Shown piece by piece: positions 53,573-63,794 of a stretch of 64,000 nt of DNA; positions within the stretch are counted from its first letter, which is position 1, and every line of letters begins with the position of its first letter. Under the pieces are notes generated by a model. The model did not search any database. It saw only the letters and a program-made list of their open reading frames with translations, and was not told the DNA's origin. Both the position numbers and the translations under genes were made by a program. The DNA comes from Halomonas sp. M20 (GTDB lineage: Bacteria; Pseudomonadota; Gammaproteobacteria; Pseudomonadales; Halomonadaceae), in the NCBI RefSeq assembly GCF_020622265.1, contig NZ_JACNMQ010000004.1, positions 310,001 to 374,000 on the forward strand, given 5' to 3'.

Positions 53573-53827
53573 CGAACCCTCCCTGGGATATGAAGAACGG
53601 CCTGTCCTTTACAAAAATGGCATACATTCAATCAAAACCCAGCAGCTCAATACTTTTTCACTAAATAATTAACCCCACTGTCACAAAGATTCACGGCTAT
53701 ACCTGAAAAACGCGGTTGTTGTTTGCGCCATGTTACGAAGATGATCGCAACGACCTGGAATTAAAGGTTCGTTCTACGTCATCGCAGCGGCTCGGACCAT
53801 GCTAGAACTCAAATGATGAGGCACGCC
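53573..53827. other. Intergenic region between DUF748 and formamidase genes
   Basis: About 255 bases, AT-richer than its surroundings, between two divergent genes; promoters for both should lie here. I looked for a sigma-54 -24/-12 pattern, expected for amide-nitrogen genes, and found no convincing match. No small gene or RNA is recognised. Confidence 0.4.
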
Positions 53828-55054
53828 ATGACTCATACAGCCTTCAAAGTGGAGCTAAACAAAAGCCCTGAAGAACAAGACACAAAGACCCATAATCGAT
53901 GGCACCCGGACATCCCTATGGTCGAGCAGTTCAAGCCCGGCGATGTTTTTCGCGTGGAAACCTATGACTGGACAGGCGGCCAGATAGACAACAACGACTC
54001 GGCCAACGATATTCGCGATGTCGACCTGACCAAGGTGCATTACCTCAGTGGTCCTTTTGGCGTGGAGGGTGCCGAACCCGGCGATCTACTGGTCGTCGAC
54101 ATACTCGATGTCGGCGCTTTGCCGGATTCACCCTGGGGCTTCAACGGCGTCTTTGCCAAAGAAAATGGCGGAAGCTTCCTGGTTGAGCATTACCCGAATG
54201 CTTTCAAGTCCTGCTGGGATTTTCACGGTATTTTCACCAGTTCACGACATGTCCCCGGGGTACGCTGGCCAGGTATCATCCACCCTGGGCTGATCGGCTG
54301 CCTGCCCGATCGCAAACTGCTCGAAGCGGCTAATAAACGCGAAGCGGCATTGATTGCGACCAATCCTGACCGGGTCCCACCCCTGGCTGCGCCTCCCTAT
54401 GCGGACACCGCCTTAATGGGGCAGATGGAGCCCGGCGCCGCCGGCAAGGCAGCAGCGGAAGCATGGCGTACCGTTCCTCCACGCGAGCATGGCGGTAACT
54501 GCGACATCAAGAATCTCTCGCGGGGCTCAAAGATCTATTTTCCGGTCTATGTCAAAGGCGGTGGACTCTCCATGGGTGATATCCACTGGTCTCAGGGCGA
54601 CGGCGAGATCACCTTCTGCGGCGGTATCGAAATGGCCGGATTCCTCGATATCGGAGTCGATATAATCAAGGATGGCGTCAACAAATACGGGGTGACCAAT
54701 CCTATTTTTATGCCAAGCCGAATCGATCCGCACTTCTCGGATTACATCGTCTTCGAGGGCATCTCCGTCGATGAGCATAGTGGTGAGCAGTACTATCTCG
54801 ATGCCCATGTCGCGTATCGCCGTGCCTGCCTTAATGCAATCGAGTATCTGAAAAAGTTTGGCTATACGGGGGAGCAGGTTTACACGCTGCTCAGCACCGC
54901 GCCGGTAGAGGGGCACATCGCCGGGATCGTCGATATCCCCAATGCCTGCTGTACCTTGGCCATCCCCACGGGGATCTTCGACTTCGATATTCGTCCGAAT
55001 GCCAAGGGCCCGGAAAAGCAGGTTTCGGAGGCAAACGTCAGCTTCGCGAGTTGA
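53828..55054 (+). CDS. fmdA: Formamidase (FmdA/AmdA family)
   Basis: Amidohydrolase of 408 residues that splits formamide (or acetamide) to ammonia and the acid, a nitrogen scavenging step. The sequence follows the FmdA/AmdA family from end to end: HNRWHPDIPMVEQFKPGDVFRVE, then GVEGAEPGDLLVVDILD, FKSCWDFHGIFTSSRHVPGVRW, REHGGNCDIKNLSRGSKIYFPVYVKGGG and GIVDIPNACCTLAIPTGIFDFD. It is the first gene of a three-gene set with an amide channel and FmdB. ATG 53828 (with TGAGGC before it) is chosen over one five codons upstream. Confidence 0.93.
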   Translation: MTHTAFKVELNKSPEEQDTKTHNRWHPDIPMVEQFKPGDVFRVETYDWTGGQIDNNDSANDIRDVDLTKVHYLSGPFGVEGAEPGDLLVVDILDVGALPDSPWGFNGVFAKENGGSFLVEHYPNAFKSCWDFHGIFTSSRHVPGVRWPGIIHPGLIGCLPDRKLLEAANKREAALIATNPDRVPPLAAPPYADTALMGQMEPGAAGKAAAEAWRTVPPREHGGNCDIKNLSRGSKIYFPVYVKGGGLSMGDIHWSQGDGEITFCGGIEMAGFLDIGVDIIKDGVNKYGVTNPIFMPSRIDPHFSDYIVFEGISVDEHSGEQYYLDAHVAYRRACLNAIEYLKKFGYTGEQVYTLLSTAPVEGHIAGIVDIPNACCTLAIPTGIFDFDIRPNAKGPEKQVSEANVSFAS

Positions 55055-55714: not shown

Positions 55715-56092
55715 ATGCCAAACTACGATTATATATGTCACCAGTGCGGACCTTTCAGCATCAGAAGAGCGATGACCCGGGCGACGGATCCTGCAGACTG
55801 CCCCCGGTGTACCCTCAGCGCAGTTCGCGTCATCAGCGCTCCGTTTCTCAATACCATGAACGGCAATAGCCGCAAGGCGTATCAACGCAACGAACTCAGT
55901 GCCGACTGCCCGAAGGTGATGTCCCGCGCCGAACTGGATCTGAAGCGTGTCGCCACTCAGCAGCACCCCGATAGCGCGCACCGGCATGGCTGCAAACACG
56001 ATCACGGCGCACCGATCTCTCCTGAAACCCGACGTCTGACCGGCTCGACGGACTATCAACAATCCAACAAGCGCTGGATGATCGGGCATTGA
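55715..56092 (+). CDS. fmdB: FmdB-family zinc-ribbon regulatory protein
   Basis: Protein of 125 residues. The FmdB zinc ribbon is N-terminal: YDYICHQCGPF and DPADCPRCTLSAVRVISAP, with Cys8, Cys11, Cys29 and Cys32. FmdB was described as a putative regulator next to formamidase in Methylophilus; it follows fmdA and the amide channel here as well, which strengthens the call. The C-terminal part is His/Asp-rich (HPDSAHRHGCKHDHGAP), possibly a further metal site. ATG 55715 has AAGGAG in front. Confidence 0.87.
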   Translation: MPNYDYICHQCGPFSIRRAMTRATDPADCPRCTLSAVRVISAPFLNTMNGNSRKAYQRNELSADCPKVMSRAELDLKRVATQQHPDSAHRHGCKHDHGAPISPETRRLTGSTDYQQSNKRWMIGH

Positions 56093-56133: not shown

Positions 56134-56805
56134 ATGATGACCACTCTGAAGGATTTTCCGCTGGCGATTCTTGCCAAGGCACCAGTACCAGGCCAGGTCA
56201 AGACTCGACTGATGCCTCGCCTTGGTGCGGAGGGCGCTACCAGGCTGCATCGCCAACTTGTCTGGCAGACCCTGGAAACCGCCGTGGCTGCCACCGAGCC
56301 GGCATCAATCACGCTGTGGACAAGCCTTGCTTCCCGGGGCGGCCCGGAACATGCGTTCTTCGATACCTGTGCCGAACATTTCGGTATTCGTCTATGTGCG
56401 CAGCCTAACGGTAGCCTTGGCCTACGCATGCAGGCCGCACTGGTTGCCATGCCAGGTCCGGGCCTGGTGATCGGCTGCGACTGTCCGATGCTCGATGCGG
56501 CCTTGTTGCAGCAATGCCGGGCCATCTTGGCATCCTCGGAGTGCGTGCTGCTGCCGGCGGAGGACGGCGGGTACGCCCTTATCGGCGCGCACCAGGCCGA
56601 TTCGCGGCTATTTCAGGATATCGACTGGGGGACCGAGCGCGTGTTGACCCAGACGCTCGAGCGACTACATGAGCTCGGCTGGTCGTATGCGTGTCCGACA
56701 CGCGTCTGGGATCTGGACAGGCCCGACGATCTCGAACGTCTGCTGAGCCTACCCAATCCGGAGCGCTGGCGTGAGTTTGTTTCCAGCGCAATTGATACAC
56801 AATAG
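56134..56805 (+). CDS. TIGR04282 family glycosyltransferase
   Basis: Protein of 223 residues with a GT-A-like nucleotidyl/glycosyltransferase fold of the TIGR04282 (DUF2064) family. Markers are LAILAKAPVPGQVKTRLMPRLG, LVIGCDCPMLDAALL with the metal-binding acidic residues, and LLPAEDGGYALIGAH. Some members are linked to arsenosugar biosynthesis, but no other ars gene is adjacent, so the role here is unassigned. Two tandem ATG codons (56134 and 56137) are available. It starts 41 bases after fmdB and may ride on that transcript. Confidence 0.87.
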   Translation: MMTTLKDFPLAILAKAPVPGQVKTRLMPRLGAEGATRLHRQLVWQTLETAVAATEPASITLWTSLASRGGPEHAFFDTCAEHFGIRLCAQPNGSLGLRMQAALVAMPGPGLVIGCDCPMLDAALLQQCRAILASSECVLLPAEDGGYALIGAHQADSRLFQDIDWGTERVLTQTLERLHELGWSYACPTRVWDLDRPDDLERLLSLPNPERWREFVSSAIDTQ

Positions 56806-56865: not shown

Positions 56866-57570
56866 TCACTCGTGGCCCAGGCTGGACGCTAGACGTCGCT
56901 CCCAATCTGCCAATGATATCGGCAACTGGCCGATGACCTCGACATCGCGATTCTCGAAAATGTCGCGTACGCCGGACTTTTCAAGGCTATCTATCTCACG
57001 GTCGCGGTGATTGACCAAGACGTCGAGATAGGGATAGAAGGCGATAATCATGGCACTCACCCAGCGGTTGACGGGCCAAGAGGGCCAAGCGTGATCGAGC
57101 TCGAATGATCTGGCCAGCGCCAGAGTCTCGGGGGCATCGCGCCAGGTTTCACCGGTCACCCAGCGATTCGTGGTAAAAAGCCCGATAGGCTCCCCCCAGG
57201 CATCCATGGAGATGGCGATCAAATGAGTAGGATCAGCCAAGTAGCCGGGGTGATTGTCCTCCGGTGGGCGCTGAAAGACATGGAAATGACCATGTTCTTC
57301 ACTACCTCGGTGTGCATGATAGTAGTACTGGCTGCCGGTTTCCTTGTCGTAGACATCGCCCTGGGGGAAGTGATTGAACTCCAGGAACTCACCCTGCCCC
57401 TTGAGTAGCTCCCCCACCAAATTGAGACCGACCTTCTTCAATACCCGCTGGCAATCCAGGGCGTCGAGGGCGGCTGTATGCATGAGCTGTACTTCAGCAG
57501 TCGCGTAATCCACAAGAGAGGGTTCGCAAATAGCCTCGGTAATAGAGTACGACGGTGACACCGCATTCAT
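56866..57570 (-). CDS. DUF6969 family protein
   Basis: Protein of 234 residues without signal peptide or membrane segment. Conserved-looking segments are FLEFNHFPQGDVYDKETGSQYYYHAHRGSEEHGHFHVF and HLIAISMDAWGEPIGLFTTNRWVTGE. The dense His cluster (HAHR...EHGHFHVF) may bind metal. It matches what I remember as DUF6969, without a known function. ATG 57568-57570 with GGAGAA is preferred over an upstream start. It is 84 bases downstream of the NPCA-repeat cytochrome and on the same strand, so the two are probably one operon. Confidence 0.7.
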   Translation of the reverse strand: MNAVSPSYSITEAICEPSLVDYATAEVQLMHTAALDALDCQRVLKKVGLNLVGELLKGQGEFLEFNHFPQGDVYDKETGSQYYYHAHRGSEEHGHFHVFQRPPEDNHPGYLADPTHLIAISMDAWGEPIGLFTTNRWVTGETWRDAPETLALARSFELDHAWPSWPVNRWVSAMIIAFYPYLDVLVNHRDREIDSLEKSGVRDIFENRDVEVIGQLPISLADWERRLASSLGHE

Positions 57571-57654
57571 GGCATTTCTCCGCTTCTCGATCTCGTTGAC
57601 ATGGCGTCGATATGGCCGACTTCGCATGGCGGCCATATCGACTTGTCATCATGG

Positions 57655-58338
57655 CTATTCAGGTCCGCTGTAATTACGCTGAACGTTCACCACGTAGGCC
57701 GCCAACGCCGCTAGATCCATCGACTCCCAGTCCAAGGGACTCGCCGCCATGGGATTGGCCATGCAGATCTGCACCATCTCGTCGGCATGGACTTCGTTCA
57801 TGCCATAGAGGTTCATGCCCATGACCACCTGATGCGGGTAGGCCTGCTCGAAGGTAGCTTGATAACCTTGATCGCCGCTATGGCAACTGGCACAAGCAAG
57901 GCCATTGCTGCTCAGCTCCGTATCGTTGAACAGTGTCTCGCCGCGCGTCAGCAATTCTTGAGTGTTTTCGCCATCTTCTTTATAACCCGGCGAGTAATCC
58001 GCTGGGCGTGTCACCGCGCTAGAATCTTTCTGGCTGCCCGCCGCACAGGGATTGGCCCCGGCGCACGGATTGGCACTTGCGCAGGGATTAGCTCCTGCAC
58101 AAGGATTCTTTGTTGCACAAGGATTGGCTACGGCACAGGGATTCTTCGTTGCACATGGATTGACTCCAGCGCAAGGATTTTGACTGGCACAGGGGTTCTT
58201 GCCCGCACAAGGATTGGCCGCGCATTGTGCCATCACCTGACTTACGCCACCCCCAATGGCCGCCGTCAACAAGGTGCCGGCGAGCGTACCTGCCAGCGCC
58301 GTACGACTGGACAGATTCAGACGTTTCTTGAGATTCAT
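57655..58338 (-). CDS. Exported cytochrome c with Cys-rich NPCA hexapeptide array
   Basis: Protein of 227 residues. Signal peptide at 1-37 (MNLKKRLNLSSRTALAG, ending MAQ). Residues 42-99 contain ten NPCA units spaced exactly six residues apart. After a linker, residues 120-227 form a small cytochrome c domain with the haem site CASCH (149-153), DQGYQATFEQAYPHQ and a Met-rich stretch that could give the axial ligand (MGMNLYGMNEVHADEM). It should be periplasmic. The Cys array may bind soft metals such as copper, and the haem could pass electrons; both are inferred. ATG 58336-58338 has a GGGAG site. A related haem-free protein lies at 63468. Confidence 0.78.
   Translation of the reverse strand: MNLKKRLNLSSRTALAGTLAGTLLTAAIGGGVSQVMAQCAANPCAGKNPCASQNPCAGVNPCATKNPCAVANPCATKNPCAGANPCASANPCAGANPCAAGSQKDSSAVTRPADYSPGYKEDGENTQELLTRGETLFNDTELSSNGLACASCHSGDQGYQATFEQAYPHQVVMGMNLYGMNEVHADEMVQICMANPMAASPLDWESMDLAALAAYVVNVQRNYSGPE
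58042..58215. repeat. In-gene tandem repeat: ten NPCA-x-x units
   Basis: Encodes residues 42-99 of the exported cytochrome. An 18-base period gives Asn-Pro-Cys-Ala followed by two variable residues (GK, SQ, GV, TK, VA, TK, GA, SA, GA), with ten units and no phase slip. Such a repeat can expand or contract by recombination or slippage. Confidence 0.9.
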
Positions 58339-58622
58339 GACAGCACTCCCGAATTTGTTGGCTATTGTTATCGCCCCAGATGCGCAGTGGCATCGACTCG
58401 ATTCGCCTTGCGCATACTGCTTGGTCGAGCAATGTGCAGGAGCATTACATCTCATATTATGTTTCTTGACCGACTGATGACGCTGTCTCGGCAATCACTT
58501 AGAGCATGTGAACGCGACTGAGCCCGTAAAGGTCTCTAGGCAGTGGTGCTTCGATATTGCCAGTTCGCGTGTAAGGTCATGGTGTTGAAGACGACCAAGC
58601 TCTGAAACTCCCTCTCGCGTTG
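58339..58622. other. Intergenic region between NPCA cytochrome and phosphotransferase
   Basis: About 280 bases between divergent genes, presumably with promoters in both directions. No recognised RNA, terminator or small gene. The upstream in-frame extension of the cytochrome (to 58494) lacks a ribosome site and is not used. Confidence 0.4.
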
Positions 58623-59723
58623 ATGATTGATATGACCCGATCCGACTCGCCTATCGCTTGCGGCATTGATTCACGACTTGCAAATCTGCACCGAGCTTTG
58701 CAAGCGGCAGGACTCGACGTCAGTGAACTGGGCCAGATGGCCGATACCGGCCTGGCTCATGAGCATGTCTGGCTGTATCGGCGAAATGGCGCCGATTGGG
58801 TCGCACGCGTACCCAAACAGAGTCAGATGCGACTCGCCCCGCAAGCCAATCTCGACTACCAGGCCTGTTGCTTTGCCCGCGCTTCCCAAGGAGGACATAC
58901 GCCCGCCCTGCACGCAGTGCTTCCCCCCAGCGATGCGCTGCCCCGAGGCGGGCTTGTAGTGTCCGCTATCGATGGCCGTACGGCGCAATTGCCCCGCGAC
59001 TTACCCGCTATCGCACGGGCTTTGGCCAGTCTGCATCGCTTGTCTTTGCCTCACCCGGCAGCACGCACACCATTACTCGCGCCCCACTCACCCTGGCCGG
59101 CGCTGATAGAGGAAATTCGCGATCAGGCAAGTTATCTGGCCCAAGCCGATATCAGTGCGGACACTCATAGCCAGATATTCGAGGAATTCGAGCACCTGGA
59201 AGCATGGCTGGCTGAGAGTCAGCCATCATCGACAGCCCTGATCAGCTTCGATGCACATCCGGGTAACTTCCTGATCCAGGACGATGGCCATGCGGTATTG
59301 GTCGACCTGGAAAAATGCCGCTACGGTTTGCCGGGGCTCGATCTGGCACATGCCACTCTATACACTTCCACCACCTGGGACATCGCCACTCATGCCGAAC
59401 TCAGCGTGGAAGAGGTACATGGGTTTTATCGCCATTGGGCAACCGCAATGGGTGACGACGATAGGCATCGCGACCAAGACACCATGCTGCAATGCCGGCG
59501 TGCCATGTGGCTCTGGTCAGTGACCTGGTGCGCCAAATGGCGCGTGGAAAATCACCATTCCCACGATGCGACTGCCGGGGGCGAGGACTGGTCGACGGAG
59601 TTGAGTGACCCCGCACTGATCGCCCATGTCCGCGACCGAGTCAATCATTATTTGTCACCAAGAATCGTAGCGCGAGTTTGCACGGAGTTGCAGTATCTGC
59701 AACGGCTCGATCTGTTCGGTTGA
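58623..59723 (+). CDS. Aminoglycoside phosphotransferase/choline kinase-like protein
   Basis: Protein of 366 residues with the APH kinase fold. N-terminal nucleotide region around HEHVWLYRRNGADWVARVPKQ, where a lysine is present; catalytic region ISFDAHPGNFLIQDDGHAVLVDLEKCRYG, corresponding to H-x-D-x4-N with Phe-Asp-Ala in place of His-Gly-Asp, so the catalytic aspartate may be displaced; the metal aspartate is in VDLEKC. It might phosphorylate choline, thiamine or another alcohol. It precedes a ThiBPQ/YnjBCD-like ABC transporter by about 58 bases, so a thiamine-type kinase role is one option. Start uncertain: ATG 58623, TTG 58620 or ATG 58632, none with a good ribosome site. Confidence 0.72.
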   Translation: MIDMTRSDSPIACGIDSRLANLHRALQAAGLDVSELGQMADTGLAHEHVWLYRRNGADWVARVPKQSQMRLAPQANLDYQACCFARASQGGHTPALHAVLPPSDALPRGGLVVSAIDGRTAQLPRDLPAIARALASLHRLSLPHPAARTPLLAPHSPWPALIEEIRDQASYLAQADISADTHSQIFEEFEHLEAWLAESQPSSTALISFDAHPGNFLIQDDGHAVLVDLEKCRYGLPGLDLAHATLYTSTTWDIATHAELSVEEVHGFYRHWATAMGDDDRHRDQDTMLQCRRAMWLWSVTWCAKWRVENHHSHDATAGGEDWSTELSDPALIAHVRDRVNHYLSPRIVARVCTELQYLQRLDLFG

Positions 59724-59781
59724 CCGCCCGGCGCTTCTTGATTCATGACGCTCTATGCCAATGACAAAAGGAACTTTGCGC

Positions 59782-61005
59782 ATGCTCCAATCACTTGCTT
59801 TGCGACTTCTGCCGCTGCTTATCATCCTGCTATTCGGCAGTTCGTCGCTACAGGCTCAGGATCTCGACCTTGATGACTGGGCATCGATCGAGACCAAGGC
59901 CAAGGGCCAAACGGTTTACTGGAATGCCTGGGGTGGTGATTCGAATACCAATAACTACATCAATTGGGTGAGTAAACAGATGCAGTCTCGCCATGGTGTC
60001 AACGTGGTGCATGTAAAACTTGGCGATACCGCTGAGGCAGTGTCGCGGGTGGTGGCCGAAAAATCCGCCGGCAATCTCGAAGATGGCGCCGTCGATCTGA
60101 TCTGGATCAACGGTGAGAACTTCGCGGCCATGAAAGAAAACGGCTTGTTGTACGGTCCCTGGGCCGAGAAACTGCCAAACTTTGCGCTGACCGCCCCGAA
60201 TGCCAATCCCGAAATGCGCAACGATTTCACACTACCGGTGGAAGGCCTCGAAGCTCCCTGGGGCAAGGCGCAGATTACCTTCTACTACGATAGCGACCGG
60301 GTCGAATCACCACCCAGAACCATGCAAGCACTGCTGGATTGGACAAAGGACAACCCCGGCCGCTTCACCTATCCGCTGGTTCCCGATTTCTTCGGCAGCA
60401 CCTTTCTCAAGCAGGCCTTGTTGGGCCTGGTCGAGAATACCGAACCACTTTATGAGCCGGTCAGCGAGGCGGATTTCAAGGCGATCACTGCACCGCTTTG
60501 GGAGTATCTCGACGCGCTGCATCCGCATCTATGGCGCGGTGGCAAAAGTTTCCCTAGCAGCGGTAGTGCGCTGCGCCAGTTAATGGGGGATGGTGAGCTC
60601 AGCCTGGCGTTCACCTTCAATCCCTTGGAGCCCGCCGCTGCAGTAGCCGATTACCAGTTGCCGCCCACCATCCGTAGCTATGTGCTCGATAACGGCACGC
60701 TCGGCAACGTGCATTTCGTGGCCATTCCCTTCAATGCCAGTCACAAGGCCGGTGCACTGGTGCTAGCCAACTTTCTGCTCTCCCCCGAAGCCCAGGCGCA
60801 CAAACAGGATATCGACGTATGGGGCGACGCCACCGTACTGGCCCTGGACACGTTGGACGAAGCACAACGACAAGCCTTCAAGTCGCTGAACAATAATCGT
60901 GCGGCGCTGCCCCTCGACGCTCTGCAACGCACGCTGGCCGAGCCGCATCCAAGCTGGATGGAACGTCTGGAACAAGCGTGGCTCAAGCGGTACGGAGTGC
61001 GCTGA
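59782..61005 (+). CDS. ABC transporter substrate-binding protein (YnjB-like)
   Basis: Periplasmic binding protein of 407 residues. Signal peptide MLQSLALRLLPLLIILLFGS, then SSLQAQ. The mature protein begins LDLDDWASIETKAKGQTVYWNAWGGDSNTNNYINWV, matching the YnjB/COG4134 group, related to thiamine- and iron-binding proteins. The ligand is not known for YnjB. ATG 59782 (AAGGAA eight bases before) is preferred to 59755 because it gives a clean signal peptide. The stop overlaps the permease start by one base (TGATG). First gene of a three-gene transporter. Confidence 0.87.
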   Translation: MLQSLALRLLPLLIILLFGSSSLQAQDLDLDDWASIETKAKGQTVYWNAWGGDSNTNNYINWVSKQMQSRHGVNVVHVKLGDTAEAVSRVVAEKSAGNLEDGAVDLIWINGENFAAMKENGLLYGPWAEKLPNFALTAPNANPEMRNDFTLPVEGLEAPWGKAQITFYYDSDRVESPPRTMQALLDWTKDNPGRFTYPLVPDFFGSTFLKQALLGLVENTEPLYEPVSEADFKAITAPLWEYLDALHPHLWRGGKSFPSSGSALRQLMGDGELSLAFTFNPLEPAAAVADYQLPPTIRSYVLDNGTLGNVHFVAIPFNASHKAGALVLANFLLSPEAQAHKQDIDVWGDATVLALDTLDEAQRQAFKSLNNNRAALPLDALQRTLAEPHPSWMERLEQAWLKRYGVR

Positions 61006-62708
61006 TGCCGTCTGGGTATGCCTTGGGTATACGTCTGGCGCCCTGGATGGCGATCGCACTGCTGAGCCTGCCGGTAGCCAGCGGCCTGGTGGGCGTCATC
61101 GCACCGGCCTTCGGTTGGCTACCCGTACTGGGCGGCGATACCTTGACGTTGACGCATTGGCAGGCGCTCCTGGAGAAGCCGGGCCTGGGTCGCATGGTCC
61201 AGCTAAGCTATGTCACCGGGCTTGCCAGCGCCGGACTGTCGCTGGGCATCGTCGTGCTGTTCCTCGGCGCCTTCATGCACACTCGACTGTTCAGCACGAT
61301 GCGTCGACTGCTATCACCACTACTGGCCGTGCCGCATGCCGCAGCAGCTATCGGTCTGGCGTTTCTGCTTTCCCCTTCGGGGTTGCTCAGCCGCGCCCTT
61401 TCCCCCTGGATGACCGGCTGGCAACATCCACCGGACATCCTGTTTCCCGGCGATCCGCATGGCCTGGCGTTGATCACCGGTCTCGTTCTCAAGGAAGTGC
61501 CTTTCCTGCTTCTGATGAGCCTCGCCGCGCTGCCCCAATGCCACGCCAGTGAACGCTTGCGCGTGGCGCGCGCCTTGGGCTATGGGCCGCTCTCGGCATT
61601 TCTCAAAGCGGTGTTACCAGGGCTCTATCCGCTATTGCGGCTGCCGGTCTACGCGGTAATCGCCTTTGCATCGTCGACCGTCGACGTGGCGCTGATCCTG
61701 GGACCGACTACCCCGCCACCACTATCGGTCGCGGTATTGCGCTGGCTCAACGACCCCGATCTGTCGATGCGCTTCATGGCCTCCGCCGGCGCCTTACTGC
61801 AATTGGGTGTGACCCTGGCCGCTTTGGCCACTTGGTGGCTAATCGAGTGTTTGTTGCGGCGGCTTACCCACACCTGGCTGGAGAGCGGTCGGCGAAACAG
61901 CGGCGACGCAGTGTTCGGGGGGATCGCGCTCAGCGCGATTTCACTCTCGCTACTGTTGATCGTCGGCAGCCTGATCGGACTGGTCCTATGGTCGCTGGCT
62001 GCCTATTGGCCCTTCCCTCAGGCATTGCCGCAGCCGCTGACGCTGCGCAACTGGACGGGTGCGGCCGGCAGTCTGGGTGATCCACTGACCCAGGCCGCGA
62101 TGATCGGCATAATCGCCACCCTATTGTCGTTAGTGTTGGTAGTTGGCGCACTGGAAGCGGAAACATTGCATGAACGCCCGACCCGACCTTGGGCACAGTT
62201 TATCCTCTATTTACCTTTACTGGTGCCGCCGGTCGCCTTTCTGTTCGGGCTGGTATTGATGCAGGTTCAAACAGGCGTGCCACCGGGCACGGCAGTGGTA
62301 ATTCTCGGCCATGCGGTATTCGTGCTGCCTTATGTGTTTCTATCGCTGGCAGAAAGTTATCGCCGGCTGGACCCACGCTGGACGCATCTGGCGCGCTGTC
62401 TAGGCGCCAGTCCAGCACAGGTCTTCTGGCGGGTGCGATTACCGATGCTCAGCGTTCCGCTACTGACTGCCGCTGCGGTGGGCTTTGCGGTGAGTATCGG
62501 TCAATACCTGCCCACGCTGCTGCTGGGCGCGGGCCGAGTCAGTACTATCACCACCGAAGCGGTCAGTCTCGCCAGCGGCGGTGATCGCCGCCTGACCGCC
62601 GTCTACGCTCTGCTGCAACTGGCCTTGCCTGCGTTGGGGTTCGCATTGGCACTCGGCCTGCCTCGGCTGGTGTTTCGTCGTCGTAGCGGACTGTTGATCT
62701 CGTCATGA
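61005..62708 (+). CDS. ABC transporter permease, double-length (YnjC/ThiP-like)
   Basis: Membrane protein of 567 residues with two copies of a binding-protein-dependent permease domain, about six helices each (EAA-type loops near ASERLRVARALGYGPLSAFLKAVLPGL and LDPRWTHLARCLGASPAQVFWRVRLPML). Fused permeases of this sort are found in YnjC and ThiP. ATG 61005 overlaps the binding protein stop and has a GGAG site; a GTG at 60978 would overlap more. It works with the adjacent ATPase. The substrate may be thiamine-like or a metal/anion; the sequence does not decide. Confidence 0.87.
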   Translation: MPSGYALGIRLAPWMAIALLSLPVASGLVGVIAPAFGWLPVLGGDTLTLTHWQALLEKPGLGRMVQLSYVTGLASAGLSLGIVVLFLGAFMHTRLFSTMRRLLSPLLAVPHAAAAIGLAFLLSPSGLLSRALSPWMTGWQHPPDILFPGDPHGLALITGLVLKEVPFLLLMSLAALPQCHASERLRVARALGYGPLSAFLKAVLPGLYPLLRLPVYAVIAFASSTVDVALILGPTTPPPLSVAVLRWLNDPDLSMRFMASAGALLQLGVTLAALATWWLIECLLRRLTHTWLESGRRNSGDAVFGGIALSAISLSLLLIVGSLIGLVLWSLAAYWPFPQALPQPLTLRNWTGAAGSLGDPLTQAAMIGIIATLLSLVLVVGALEAETLHERPTRPWAQFILYLPLLVPPVAFLFGLVLMQVQTGVPPGTAVVILGHAVFVLPYVFLSLAESYRRLDPRWTHLARCLGASPAQVFWRVRLPMLSVPLLTAAAVGFAVSIGQYLPTLLLGAGRVSTITTEAVSLASGGDRRLTAVYALLQLALPALGFALALGLPRLVFRRRSGLLISS

Positions 62709-62745: not shown

Positions 62746-63378
62746 ATGCATTCACTGACGCTGGAAGATGTGCATATCACCCTCGAGGGCGCGTCCTTGC
62801 TTAGCGTCGATACCTCCATCGCCCCAGGCGAGGTGCTGACGGTGATGGGCCCTTCCGGCGTAGGCAAATCGACACTACTGGCCTATATTGCCGGTTTTCT
62901 ATCCCCGGCGTTCCATGCTCGCGGCAGAGTGTGCCTAGGCGAGCGCGAACTTACCCGGCTACCCGCCGAAGCACGCCGAGTAGGCCTGCTGTTTCAGGAC
63001 CCACTGCTGTTTCCCCATCTCAATGTCGGCGGCAATCTGGCCTTCGGCATGACCGCCGAAGGCTCACGCCGAAAGCGCAGGCAGCGCGTCGAGGCGGCAC
63101 TCGAAGAAATCGGCCTGAATGGATTTGCCAACCGCGATCCCGCTACCCTGTCCGGCGGCCAGCGTTCACGGGTAGCACTGATGCGTGTGCTATTGTCCAA
63201 ACCATGCGCGATGCTGCTCGACGAACCCTTCTCCAAGCTCGATGCCGCCCTGCGTGATGAAATGCGCCAACTGGTATTTCAACGCGTACGTCAGGAAAAC
63301 CTGCCTACATTGATGGTTACCCATGACGCCGCCGATGCAGAAGCAGCCGGTGGCCATGTAATCGAACTTGGGAGTTAA
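62746..63378 (+). CDS. ABC transporter ATP-binding protein (YnjD-like)
   Basis: ATPase of 210 residues. Walker A is GPSGVGKST (35-43), signature LSGGQ (135-139), Walker B AMLLDEPF with Asp159-Glu160, and the H-loop is in VTHDAADAEA. It is short, without an accessory domain, in keeping with YnjD and ThiQ. It starts 37 bases after the permease and is the end of the unit. A hairpin follows before the convergent NPCA-repeat gene. Confidence 0.92.
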   Translation: MHSLTLEDVHITLEGASLLSVDTSIAPGEVLTVMGPSGVGKSTLLAYIAGFLSPAFHARGRVCLGERELTRLPAEARRVGLLFQDPLLFPHLNVGGNLAFGMTAEGSRRKRRQRVEAALEEIGLNGFANRDPATLSGGQRSRVALMRVLLSKPCAMLLDEPFSKLDAALRDEMRQLVFQRVRQENLPTLMVTHDAADAEAAGGHVIELGS

Positions 63379-63467: not shown

Positions 63468-63794
63468 TCACCAGGACTCTGCGGCACATGGATTCTTCTT
63501 GGCCGCGCAAGGGTTGGCAGCACAAGGATTTTTGGTAGCGCAGGGATTGGCCGCACAGGGGTTCTTCGTGGCGCAGGGATTCTTCGTGGCGCACGGGTTC
63601 TTGGTAGCACAGGGATTGGCTCCACATGTCTGTTGTGCCGCGCAAGGATTCTTGCTTGCGCAGGGGTTGGCAGCACCGCAGGCCGCCATGGCCTGCAAAG
63701 CCGCGCCACTCAACGACACAGTCAGCACAGTGCCGGCTATTCTGGAGGCCAGCTTGCCTGAGCGAGACAGAGAAAAACGCTTCTTGAGTATCAT
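63468..63794 (-). CDS. Small exported Cys-rich NPCA-repeat protein
   Basis: Protein of 108 residues made of a signal peptide (MILKKRFSLSRSGKLASRI onward, ending about MAA at 38) and a tandem array to the C-terminus. NPCA units start at residues 43, 49, 60, 66, 72, 78, 83, 89, 94 and 101, with one degenerate unit around Cys57 and spacers of five to seven residues. The N-terminus resembles the exported cytochrome at 57655, so the two are homologous, but the haem domain is missing here. A soft-metal-binding role in the periplasm is inferred. ATG 63792-63794 has GGAG in front. Confidence 0.75.
   Translation of the reverse strand: MILKKRFSLSRSGKLASRIAGTVLTVSLSGAALQAMAACGAANPCASKNPCAAQQTCGANPCATKNPCATKNPCATKNPCAANPCATKNPCAANPCAAKKNPCAAESW
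63483..63668. repeat. In-gene tandem repeat: ten NPCA units with 5-7-residue spacing
   Basis: Encodes residues 43-104 of the small exported protein. Units NPCATK and NPCAA alternate in part, giving 18- and 15-base periods. Nearly identical adjacent copies (three NPCATK in a row) point to recent expansion. Confidence 0.88.

Follow-up and report, generated by a model that had tools for sequence, protein, structure and literature searches.

The closest known counterparts of the haem protein described here are SoxA and TsdA. In TsdA, Cys123 is a haem ligand and bears the thiosulfonate intermediate, and the active site includes Arg109, Arg119 and Ser127, which contact thiosulfate; the catalytic domain of SoxA spans residues 177-282 (available sections of PMC4423706). 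Exported cysteine repeats are represented by the bufferins or oxazolins, which have MNIO (DUF692) and DUF2063 proteins as partners. Bufferin precursors are Sec-exported and modified by a neighbour enzyme, and a fusion of Buf1, Cytochrom_C and FGE-sulfatase has been reported (PMC12452194, in the part accessible to us). YeeE-like proteins import thiosulfate or sulfur according to the accessible text of PMC11582611, which uses neither 'cysteine-rich' nor 'small protein'. The window, which is the whole stretch of 64,000 nucleotides analysed from the halophilic bacterium Halomonas sp. M20, encodes a cytochrome (P0001) whose frame is open throughout 57658-58338 on the minus strand (227 aa). Its parts are the following.

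57655..58338, minus strand: Cys-array cytochrome gene P0001, 227 aa and stop (ORF list, translation)
58228..58338, minus strand: signal-like N-terminus, residues 1-37, MNLKKRLNL...GGGVSQVMA (read from sequence)
58036..58215, minus strand: array of ten NPCAxx units at residues 42-101, Cys at 44-98, disorder predicted (sequence, AlphaFold2)
57658..58011, minus strand: SoxA/TsdA-type mono-haem domain, residues ~110-227 (PF21342, fold match SoxA 1h31)
57880..57894, minus strand: haem attachment motif CASCH, residues 149-153 (sequence)
57763..57765, minus strand: Cys192, invariant, matching TsdA haem ligand Cys123 in position (alignments)

The first-pass annotation described ten Cys residues at exact six-residue steps in this gene, and the translation agrees (residues 44, 50, 56, 62, 68, 74, 80, 86, 92 and 98). 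Additional Cys are found at 39, before the array run, at 149 and 152 (CASCH) and at 192. Shuffling the residues of the segment 100,000 times gave six-spaced Cys runs of at most 7 (2 shuffles), against 10 in P0001. N, P, C and A are fixed in all ten units, yet 2 Asn, 4 Pro, 2 Cys and 4 Ala codons are in use, and the last two positions vary freely. This combination looks like selection on NPCA rather than fresh DNA duplication. An origin of the array by chance or by fresh duplication was considered and rejected in view of the shuffles and the codon variation. Two NPCA units six residues apart gave 14 pattern matches in the M20 genome, all within P0001 and a second array gene, P0002. Pfam and NCBIfam scans gave no family match for the P0001 array or for P0002, and a literature search (NPCAAK; with metal; with cytochrome c in Mariprofundus) found no paper on NPCA-type cysteine repeats. 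The initial impression that this layout belongs to no characterised family is supported within the range of these searches. A plasmid search returned a single match, weak and partial. In an AlphaFold2 model built from an alignment of 23 sequences, residues 30-98 have pLDDT under 50, that is, the array is disordered in the model, and most of the haem domain folds well. The N-terminus and the maturation of c-type haem suggest that P0001 is exported. The signal-like N-terminus, the predicted disorder and PF21342 are consistent with the earlier description of an exported-looking array on a small c-type haem domain.

The haem domain passes the threshold of PF21342 (SoxA/TsdA cytochrome; residues 132-221, E 8.4e-8, 32.5 bits, cut-off 27) and stays below that of the SoxA equivalog TIGR04484 (28 bits, cut-off 110). 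Its best VIA-align match is SoxA 1h31, on which 87 residues superpose at 2.6 A with Z 8.6 (positions 54-141 of the chain), TsdA and TsdBA structures reach Z of about 7, and Foldseek also ranks SoxA and TsdA best, with E-values of just about 0.1. A profile including distant relatives gives 1.5e-10 for SoxA and 7e-7 for TsdA. The matched stretch 54-141 is the first haem domain of SoxA, and the matched stretch of TsdA contains the catalytic Cys. Cys192 is invariant in alignments A1, A3 and A4, and the profile alignment puts it at the same position as the Cys of 'GDCFERS' in TsdA (4wq7) and one Cys in each SoxA domain of 1h31, pointing to a distal haem-ligand Cys. Counted from this Cys, TsdA Arg109, Arg119 and Ser127 are aligned with Leu177, Met188 and Pro196 of P0001. 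By this alignment the ligand Cys is retained and the known thiosulfate contacts are lost. P0001 is therefore like the SoxA/TsdA family in the sequence and fold of the haem domain, in CxxCH and in the invariant Cys at the ligand position; unlike those proteins, it has one haem, a fused Cys array and no substrate-contacting Arg of the TsdA type. There is also local similarity around CxxCH to the di-haem enzymes MbnH/MauG, but P0001 has a single haem motif. Membership in MbnH/CCP was rejected (20.7 bits, cut-off 362.85; one CxxCH, not two haems).

A homologue of P0001 is present in 11 of 58 near genomes (own included). A sampling of GTDB 220 at one genome per species yielded 234 stretches that code for relatives, and the best 80 of these were used. 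These 80 come from Halomonadaceae, Marinobacter, Oceanisphaera and three Gamma- or Betaproteobacteria MAGs, and the closest named among them are an uncultured Halomonas isolate (84% identity), Modicisalibacter ilicicola and Halomonas sp. PR-M31. Among the best 80 of 234, 28 carry a Cys-type array, 50 an acidic Cys-free (AEGEAE)n repeat and 2 are truncated; L079, whose array is frameshifted, was scored as acidic and L119 as a short Cys array. The truncated relatives, L048 (Halomonas sp. PR-M31) and L106 (Halomonas sp. NO4), are cytochrome genes without the array region and were excluded from the Cys/acidic table. The 50 acidic-type relatives (spanning L047-L099, L120 and L121) have the same haem domain. 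Among the rows listed, inspection by eye showed a different N-terminus in the acidic type in addition to a repeat without Cys, so the exchange took in the entire N-terminal part. A quick tree built from 92 haem domains (119 columns, with many forks unresolved) requires at least three array-type changes, the starred branches also forcing three; L148, L151, L152, L157, L159 and L164 are absent from it because the motif missed their domain. In a wider sampling that counted the M20 genome, the haem domain, with or without an array, occurs in 15 of the 369 class genomes and 50 of the 398 phylum genomes. Identical array-cytochrome copies occur on two contigs of one Marinobacter mobilis genome (L102 and L103), by duplication or as an assembly effect.

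The arrays of the 28 Cys-type relatives are less regular than that of P0001. Steps of six make up 148 of 355 Cys-Cys steps, steps of 3, 5 and 4 being also common, and 'NP' precedes 212 of 383 array Cys. Array length varies widely, with 3 to 21 thiols per protein, mostly at least 10, and 15 of the 28 proteins have at least two additional PC units C-terminal of the haem domain. Strict six-residue spacing as a family hallmark is thus ruled out by these variable steps: the perfect periodicity first reported holds for P0001 and breaks down in the relatives, where the NPC unit is what recurs. Universal conservation of the array in homologues, the lack of which the first-pass annotation had named as refuting its reading, was contradicted, since Cys-free acidic repeats replace it in 50 of the best 80 of 234, although array-only companion genes at these loci agree in type with the fused array. 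Met/His-rich NPC arrays, e.g. NPCGMKMH and NPCNPCAMKK, are common in family code f225, which may be Zetaproteobacteria. The array-cytochrome is a real and conserved feature, its array is modular and not universal, and the strict period is incidental.

Two further genes of the window, both absent from the first-pass finding, are relevant here.

56866..57636, minus strand: DUF6969 gene, 18 bases past the cytochrome stop codon (PF22308, E 1.7e-69)
63468..63794, minus strand: second NPC-array gene P0002, haem-free, 10 NPC units, 12 Cys (ORF, unit count)

The product of the first belongs to DUF6969 by its PF22308 score (233.9 bits, cut-off 27). DUF6969 adjoins 28 of the 29 genes with a Cys-type array (that of the window and those of 27 out of 28 relatives) and none of the 50 with an acidic one, counting acidic locus L098, which is not assessable as it stops about 0.5 kb after the gene, and L055, which stops likewise and whose whole genome gave no DUF6969 match; L144 was excluded from this table. 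The genome of the sole Cys-type exception, L105, has DUF6969 elsewhere, adjoining another NPC array. A whole-genome search covering 50 genomes detected DUF6969 in one of 44 acidic-type genomes (L121), where it adjoins an NPCAAA array encoded as a gene of its own. In the wider tree set, which does not include the fetched f225 loci, DUF6969 adjoins 32 of 38 Cys-type genes and is absent at 6; none of the six fetched f225 NPC-cytochrome loci has it. Independent switches of array type number two (starred) or possibly three, on average 1.9 of 2 are concordant with DUF6969, and the sign test is not significant (p 0.5 or more). At 18 further chosen loci there was a multihaem cytochrome in 11, DUF6969 in 5, neither in 2 and both in 0 (Fisher p 0.0025, relatedness ignored); at L183, one of the two loci with neither, the cytochrome has no array. 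Multihaem Cytochrome_C554 genes stand beside NPC-cytochromes without DUF6969 at L168:7340-8575(-), L170:6903-8222(-), L174:6822-8117(-) and L175:9451-10647(+), the L168 protein also scoring to ExtKL (2e-17) under the cut-off.

P0002 is 69% identical to P0001 across query residues 1-102, with Cys steps of 5 to 7, and is the one array-only NPC gene of the window besides the cytochrome. Among the best 80 of 234 relatives, NPC-type array-only genes were found at four loci of the Cys lineage (L044, L045, L058 and the truncated L048) and acidic-type ones at 11 acidic loci. Throughout these 80 loci the companion is of the same type as the fused array and there is no crossing, eleven 'NPC' companion rows having been discounted by eye as antisense or lacking NPC runs (L050, L059, L066, L069 twice, L070, L071, L078, L088, L107 and L110). 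At the level of the genome the types do mix, for the acidic-type L121 genome also has a separate NPCAAA array (L236). The array-less cytochrome locus L048 retains DUF6969 and the array-only gene.

DUF6969 was also sampled independently of the cytochrome; with the M20 genome counted, it has 30 carriers among the 369 class genomes and 20 among the 398 phylum genomes. There is a Cys array near 42 of the 50 DUF6969 genes, and near 34 of 41 after removal of the nine loci from array-cytochrome genomes (L186, L187, L196, L197, L220, L222-L225). The automatic scan, for a Cys array after a hydrophobic stretch, matched 38 of 50; one match was discounted (L214, an antisense Cys run) and five arrays were added by eye (L187, L191, L204, L206, L218), those of L204 and L206 having merely two PC units and that of L218 lying on the opposite strand about 1.4 kb off. 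As a control, 783 kb of acidic-type loci gave 11 chance-like matches, so that about 2.5 would be expected in the 175 kb scanned at the DUF6969 loci. No array was seen near DUF6969 at L193, L194, L214, L216, L219, L221, L223 and L226, of which L194, L219 and L221 were scanned at their original length and L223 is at a contig end. The motifs near DUF6969 are diverse: NPCAAK, NPCAPSARGG, KKPCAAKK, EGCCAAEGCC, CAACAAGC, CGAKCGAK and NPCGPKK. Arrays of SPCGLD or NPCSLDED follow an 'IDHTRH' stretch, and some of the linked arrays carry no haem domain. DUF6969 itself has no visible signal sequence. His107, 109, 117, 119 and 138, Glu114, Gly116, Asn157 and Val160 are invariant over 77 rows (a few genes twice), and His115 is conserved in 76 of 77. 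No PDB structure matched its model (pLDDT 83.8) well enough to be of use (Foldseek E 0.3 and VIA-align Z 3.7 at best), which is no proof of a new fold, and a literature search found no paper on DUF6969. This partnership of DUF6969 with Cys arrays is the main novelty of the present work.

With the bufferins/oxazolins and their MNIO, the locus shares a signal-like N-terminus, low-complexity Cys repeats and a conserved His-rich neighbour protein. Unlike bufferins, it has DUF6969 as partner in place of MNIO and DUF2063, and NPC/SPC repeats in place of EGKCG or Buf1/Buf2, with no family match for the scanned arrays. Neither the P0001 array nor P0002 has a bufferin-type family match. One DUF692 (MNIO) seed in tblastn matched none of the best 80 of 234 loci and 2 of 18 further loci, one of them the seed source. 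L174:93-1602(-) holds genes for an MNIO (PF05114) and for a DUF2282 protein of the bufferin 1 family, at a distance of about 6 kb from an NPC-cytochrome.

Around the cytochrome itself, the recurrent neighbours within the window are the following, counts referring to the best 80 of 234 loci.

58620..59723, plus strand: APH/choline-kinase-like gene, recurrent neighbour (23/80 loci)
59755..61005, plus strand: YnjB-type substrate-binding protein, recurrent neighbour (NF008633, 560.6 bits against 203; 35/80 loci)
60978..62708, plus strand: YnjC-type permease, recurrent neighbour (neighbour clusters)
62746..63378, plus strand: YnjD-type ABC ATPase, recurrent neighbour (neighbour clusters)
56134..56805, plus strand: TIGR04282 'arsenosugar' glycosyltransferase-like gene, frequent neighbour (174.6 bits against 134; 12/80 loci)

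Sigma factors are near 40 of these 80 loci, the copies near the window and in L170 being TIGR02943; the former, an ECF sigma factor at L012:3501-4091(+), about 2.5 kb past the window end, is a possible regulator. A TVP38-FAD oxidoreductase occurs at 25 of the 80, TIGR04282/TIGR04283 glycosyltransferases recur near array-cytochromes, and NfeD, SPFH and SulP are near cytochromes of either array type in many Halomonadaceae. Upstream of the TIGR04282 gene, the window has formamidase FmdA (53813-55054, plus strand; 727.5 bits, cut-off 500) and an ORF (55745-56092, plus strand) with a sub-cut-off match to RPWMISH and FmdB zinc-ribbon models.

Genes known from sulfur-import and sulfide-response operons of the YeeE/TsuA/SoxT, PmpAB and BigR types adjoin many DUF6969-array loci. 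Sulf_transp (YeeE/TsuA-type) was found at 19 of the 50 DUF6969 loci and at none of the 50 acidic-type loci used as a control, and two-domain rhodanese at 18 and 7, respectively; the controls hold 4.5 times as much DNA, and several sulfur-gene seeds, their families confirmed, came from the DUF6969 loci or genomes themselves, so that detection leans their way. The typical operon order is transporter, array, DUF6969 and rhodanese (L249, L250). An ArsR-type gene beside L249 resembles BigR (110.1 bits, cut-off 155), and as a seed it matches 3 of the 50 DUF6969 loci, which share one genus code, and 1 of 50 acidic loci. The gene at L236:4746-5567(-) joins an NPCAAA array to a sulfurtransferase domain resembling TIGR01244 (48.3 bits, cut-off 85.85) and adjoins DUF6969 and split Sulf_transp genes. 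At the Cys-type cytochrome loci sulfur genes are rare (Sulf_transp 3/28, rhodanese 2/28). The M20 genome has Sulf_transp on another contig; a SoxY search of this genome was empty, as were its controls. Genes for metals or metalloids were also seen. ArsS and ArsM lie within about 8 kb of the NPC-cytochrome in 4 of 6 fetched f225 loci, and at L170 an RND efflux gene set stands between ArsS/ArsM and the cytochrome. At L168:9746-11561(-), ArsM and ArsS (TIGR04167, 467 bits) are directly upstream of the NPC-cytochrome on the same strand, and L169 and L172 are arranged similarly. FGE-sulfatase is near 4 of 50 DUF6969 loci. No copper-specific gene was recognised among the commonest, classified clusters of recurrent neighbours.

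Our preferred but tentative interpretation is that the array-cytochrome is a periplasmic multi-thiol carrier, most likely of sulfane sulfur, with a SoxA-like haem in cis and DUF6969 as partner. A flexible NPC array, predicted to be disordered, would be tethered to one SoxA/TsdA-type c-haem domain and exported. The haem would load the array, taking electrons as sulfide, polysulfide, thiosulfate or a comparable chalcogen species is attached to an array cysteine, so that one chain would combine a SoxA-like haem with SoxY-like carrier thiols, at least ten in number. DUF6969 would be the dedicated partner of Cys arrays in general and, through its His cluster, might mature, protect or unload them. 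This reading draws on the PF21342 score, the SoxA/TsdA fold matches and the alignment of Cys192 with the TsdA ligand; on the linkage of DUF6969 to Cys arrays (adjacent at 28 of the 29 Cys-type and none of the 50 acidic genes, and with an array near by at 42 of 50 DUF6969 loci); on the Sulf_transp, rhodanese, BigR-like and sulfurtransferase-fusion neighbours of DUF6969-array loci; and on companions that match the fused type. Against it, the thiosulfate contacts of TsdA are not kept, the best SoxA match is the first, non-catalytic domain, the TIGR04484 cut-off is missed, sulfur genes are weak at the cytochrome loci themselves and a BigR-like seed also matches one acidic locus. The acidic versions cannot hold sulfur on thiols. 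In addition, DUF6969 is absent at 6 of 38 wider-set Cys-type genes and at the six f225 loci, often with a multihaem cytochrome instead, the f225 arrays are Met/His-rich with ArsS and ArsM in 4 of 6 loci and RND efflux in one, and just two or three independent switches, with no significant sign test, stand behind the association.

A close rival is that of the exported array as a soft-metal buffer, chelating Cu(I), Ag(I) or As(III) in the manner of bufferins or metallothioneins, with the haem setting the redox state. The first-pass annotation leaned this way, reading the array as a soft-metal binder coupled to redox. It is supported as to the layout of the protein, soft-metal binding being a candidate role, and the neighbours of DUF6969-linked arrays point more to sulfur. 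Arrays with mostly at least ten thiols would suit a buffer, and so would the FGE-sulfatase genes near DUF6969, a domain tied to copper in the accessible portion of PMC12452194. In other lineages, the Met/His-rich variants near ArsS, ArsM and, in L170, RND efflux genes keep metal or metalloid binding a live candidate. However, no copper-specific gene was recognised among the classified commonest neighbour clusters, sulfur-transfer genes abound at DUF6969-array loci and acidic arrays serve as replacements, and on balance we rate such a buffer slightly below the sulfur carrier. DUF6969 could also be a post-translational modification enzyme and the arrays precursors of new exported Cys-modified peptides, with either ligand possible; the array would then not be free thiols. 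The widely different repeat motifs linked to DUF6969, its conserved cluster of H107, H109, E114, H115, H117, H119 and H138, and a protein without visible signal sequence paired with signal-like arrays all fit this proposal, as does the bufferin precedent of Sec-exported precursors modified by a neighbour enzyme. But no enzyme fold was recognised for DUF6969, no chemistry is known, and NPC-cytochrome genomes such as G249, G167 and G118 and those of f225 are not among the DUF6969 matches (same-size samples, presumably the same genomes); the proposal seems less likely than not. Finally, the low-complexity segment might be a mere spacer or solubility tail of the cytochrome, as its wide variation in length and the swap between NPC and (AEGEAE)n within one family, with at least three changes in the tree, could imply. 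A pure spacer would need no type-matched array-only companions, NPC is constant despite codon variation, DUF6969 follows the Cys type and haem-free arrays exist, so this explanation appears very improbable.

Returning to the multi-thiol sulfur carrier, a broader and still less certain proposal may be put forward. DUF6969 may represent a new and widespread kind of metal-dependent enzyme, which modifies or charges exported peptides with poly-Cys repeats (NPC, SPC, CGA, GCC). The SoxA-type fusion would be its self-loading member, combining the haem with a ten-site carrier of sulfur (or a soft ligand), and the acidic (AEGEAE)n arrays a parallel, DUF6969-independent version on the same cytochrome. 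Our results suggest that these Cys strings make up a thiol system, widespread and so far undescribed, that is tied to DUF6969 and probably serves to handle reactive sulfur or soft metals. If this is true, DUF6969, annotated as of 'unknown function', would gain a function class and a substrate in the class of the window and in other classes of the phylum, and the use of exported poly-thiol peptides would be a strategy that recurs outside the MNIO bufferins wherever cells deal with reactive sulfur or soft metals. Nature's own swap between Cys and acidic arrays on a single cytochrome opens the function of the array to direct testing.
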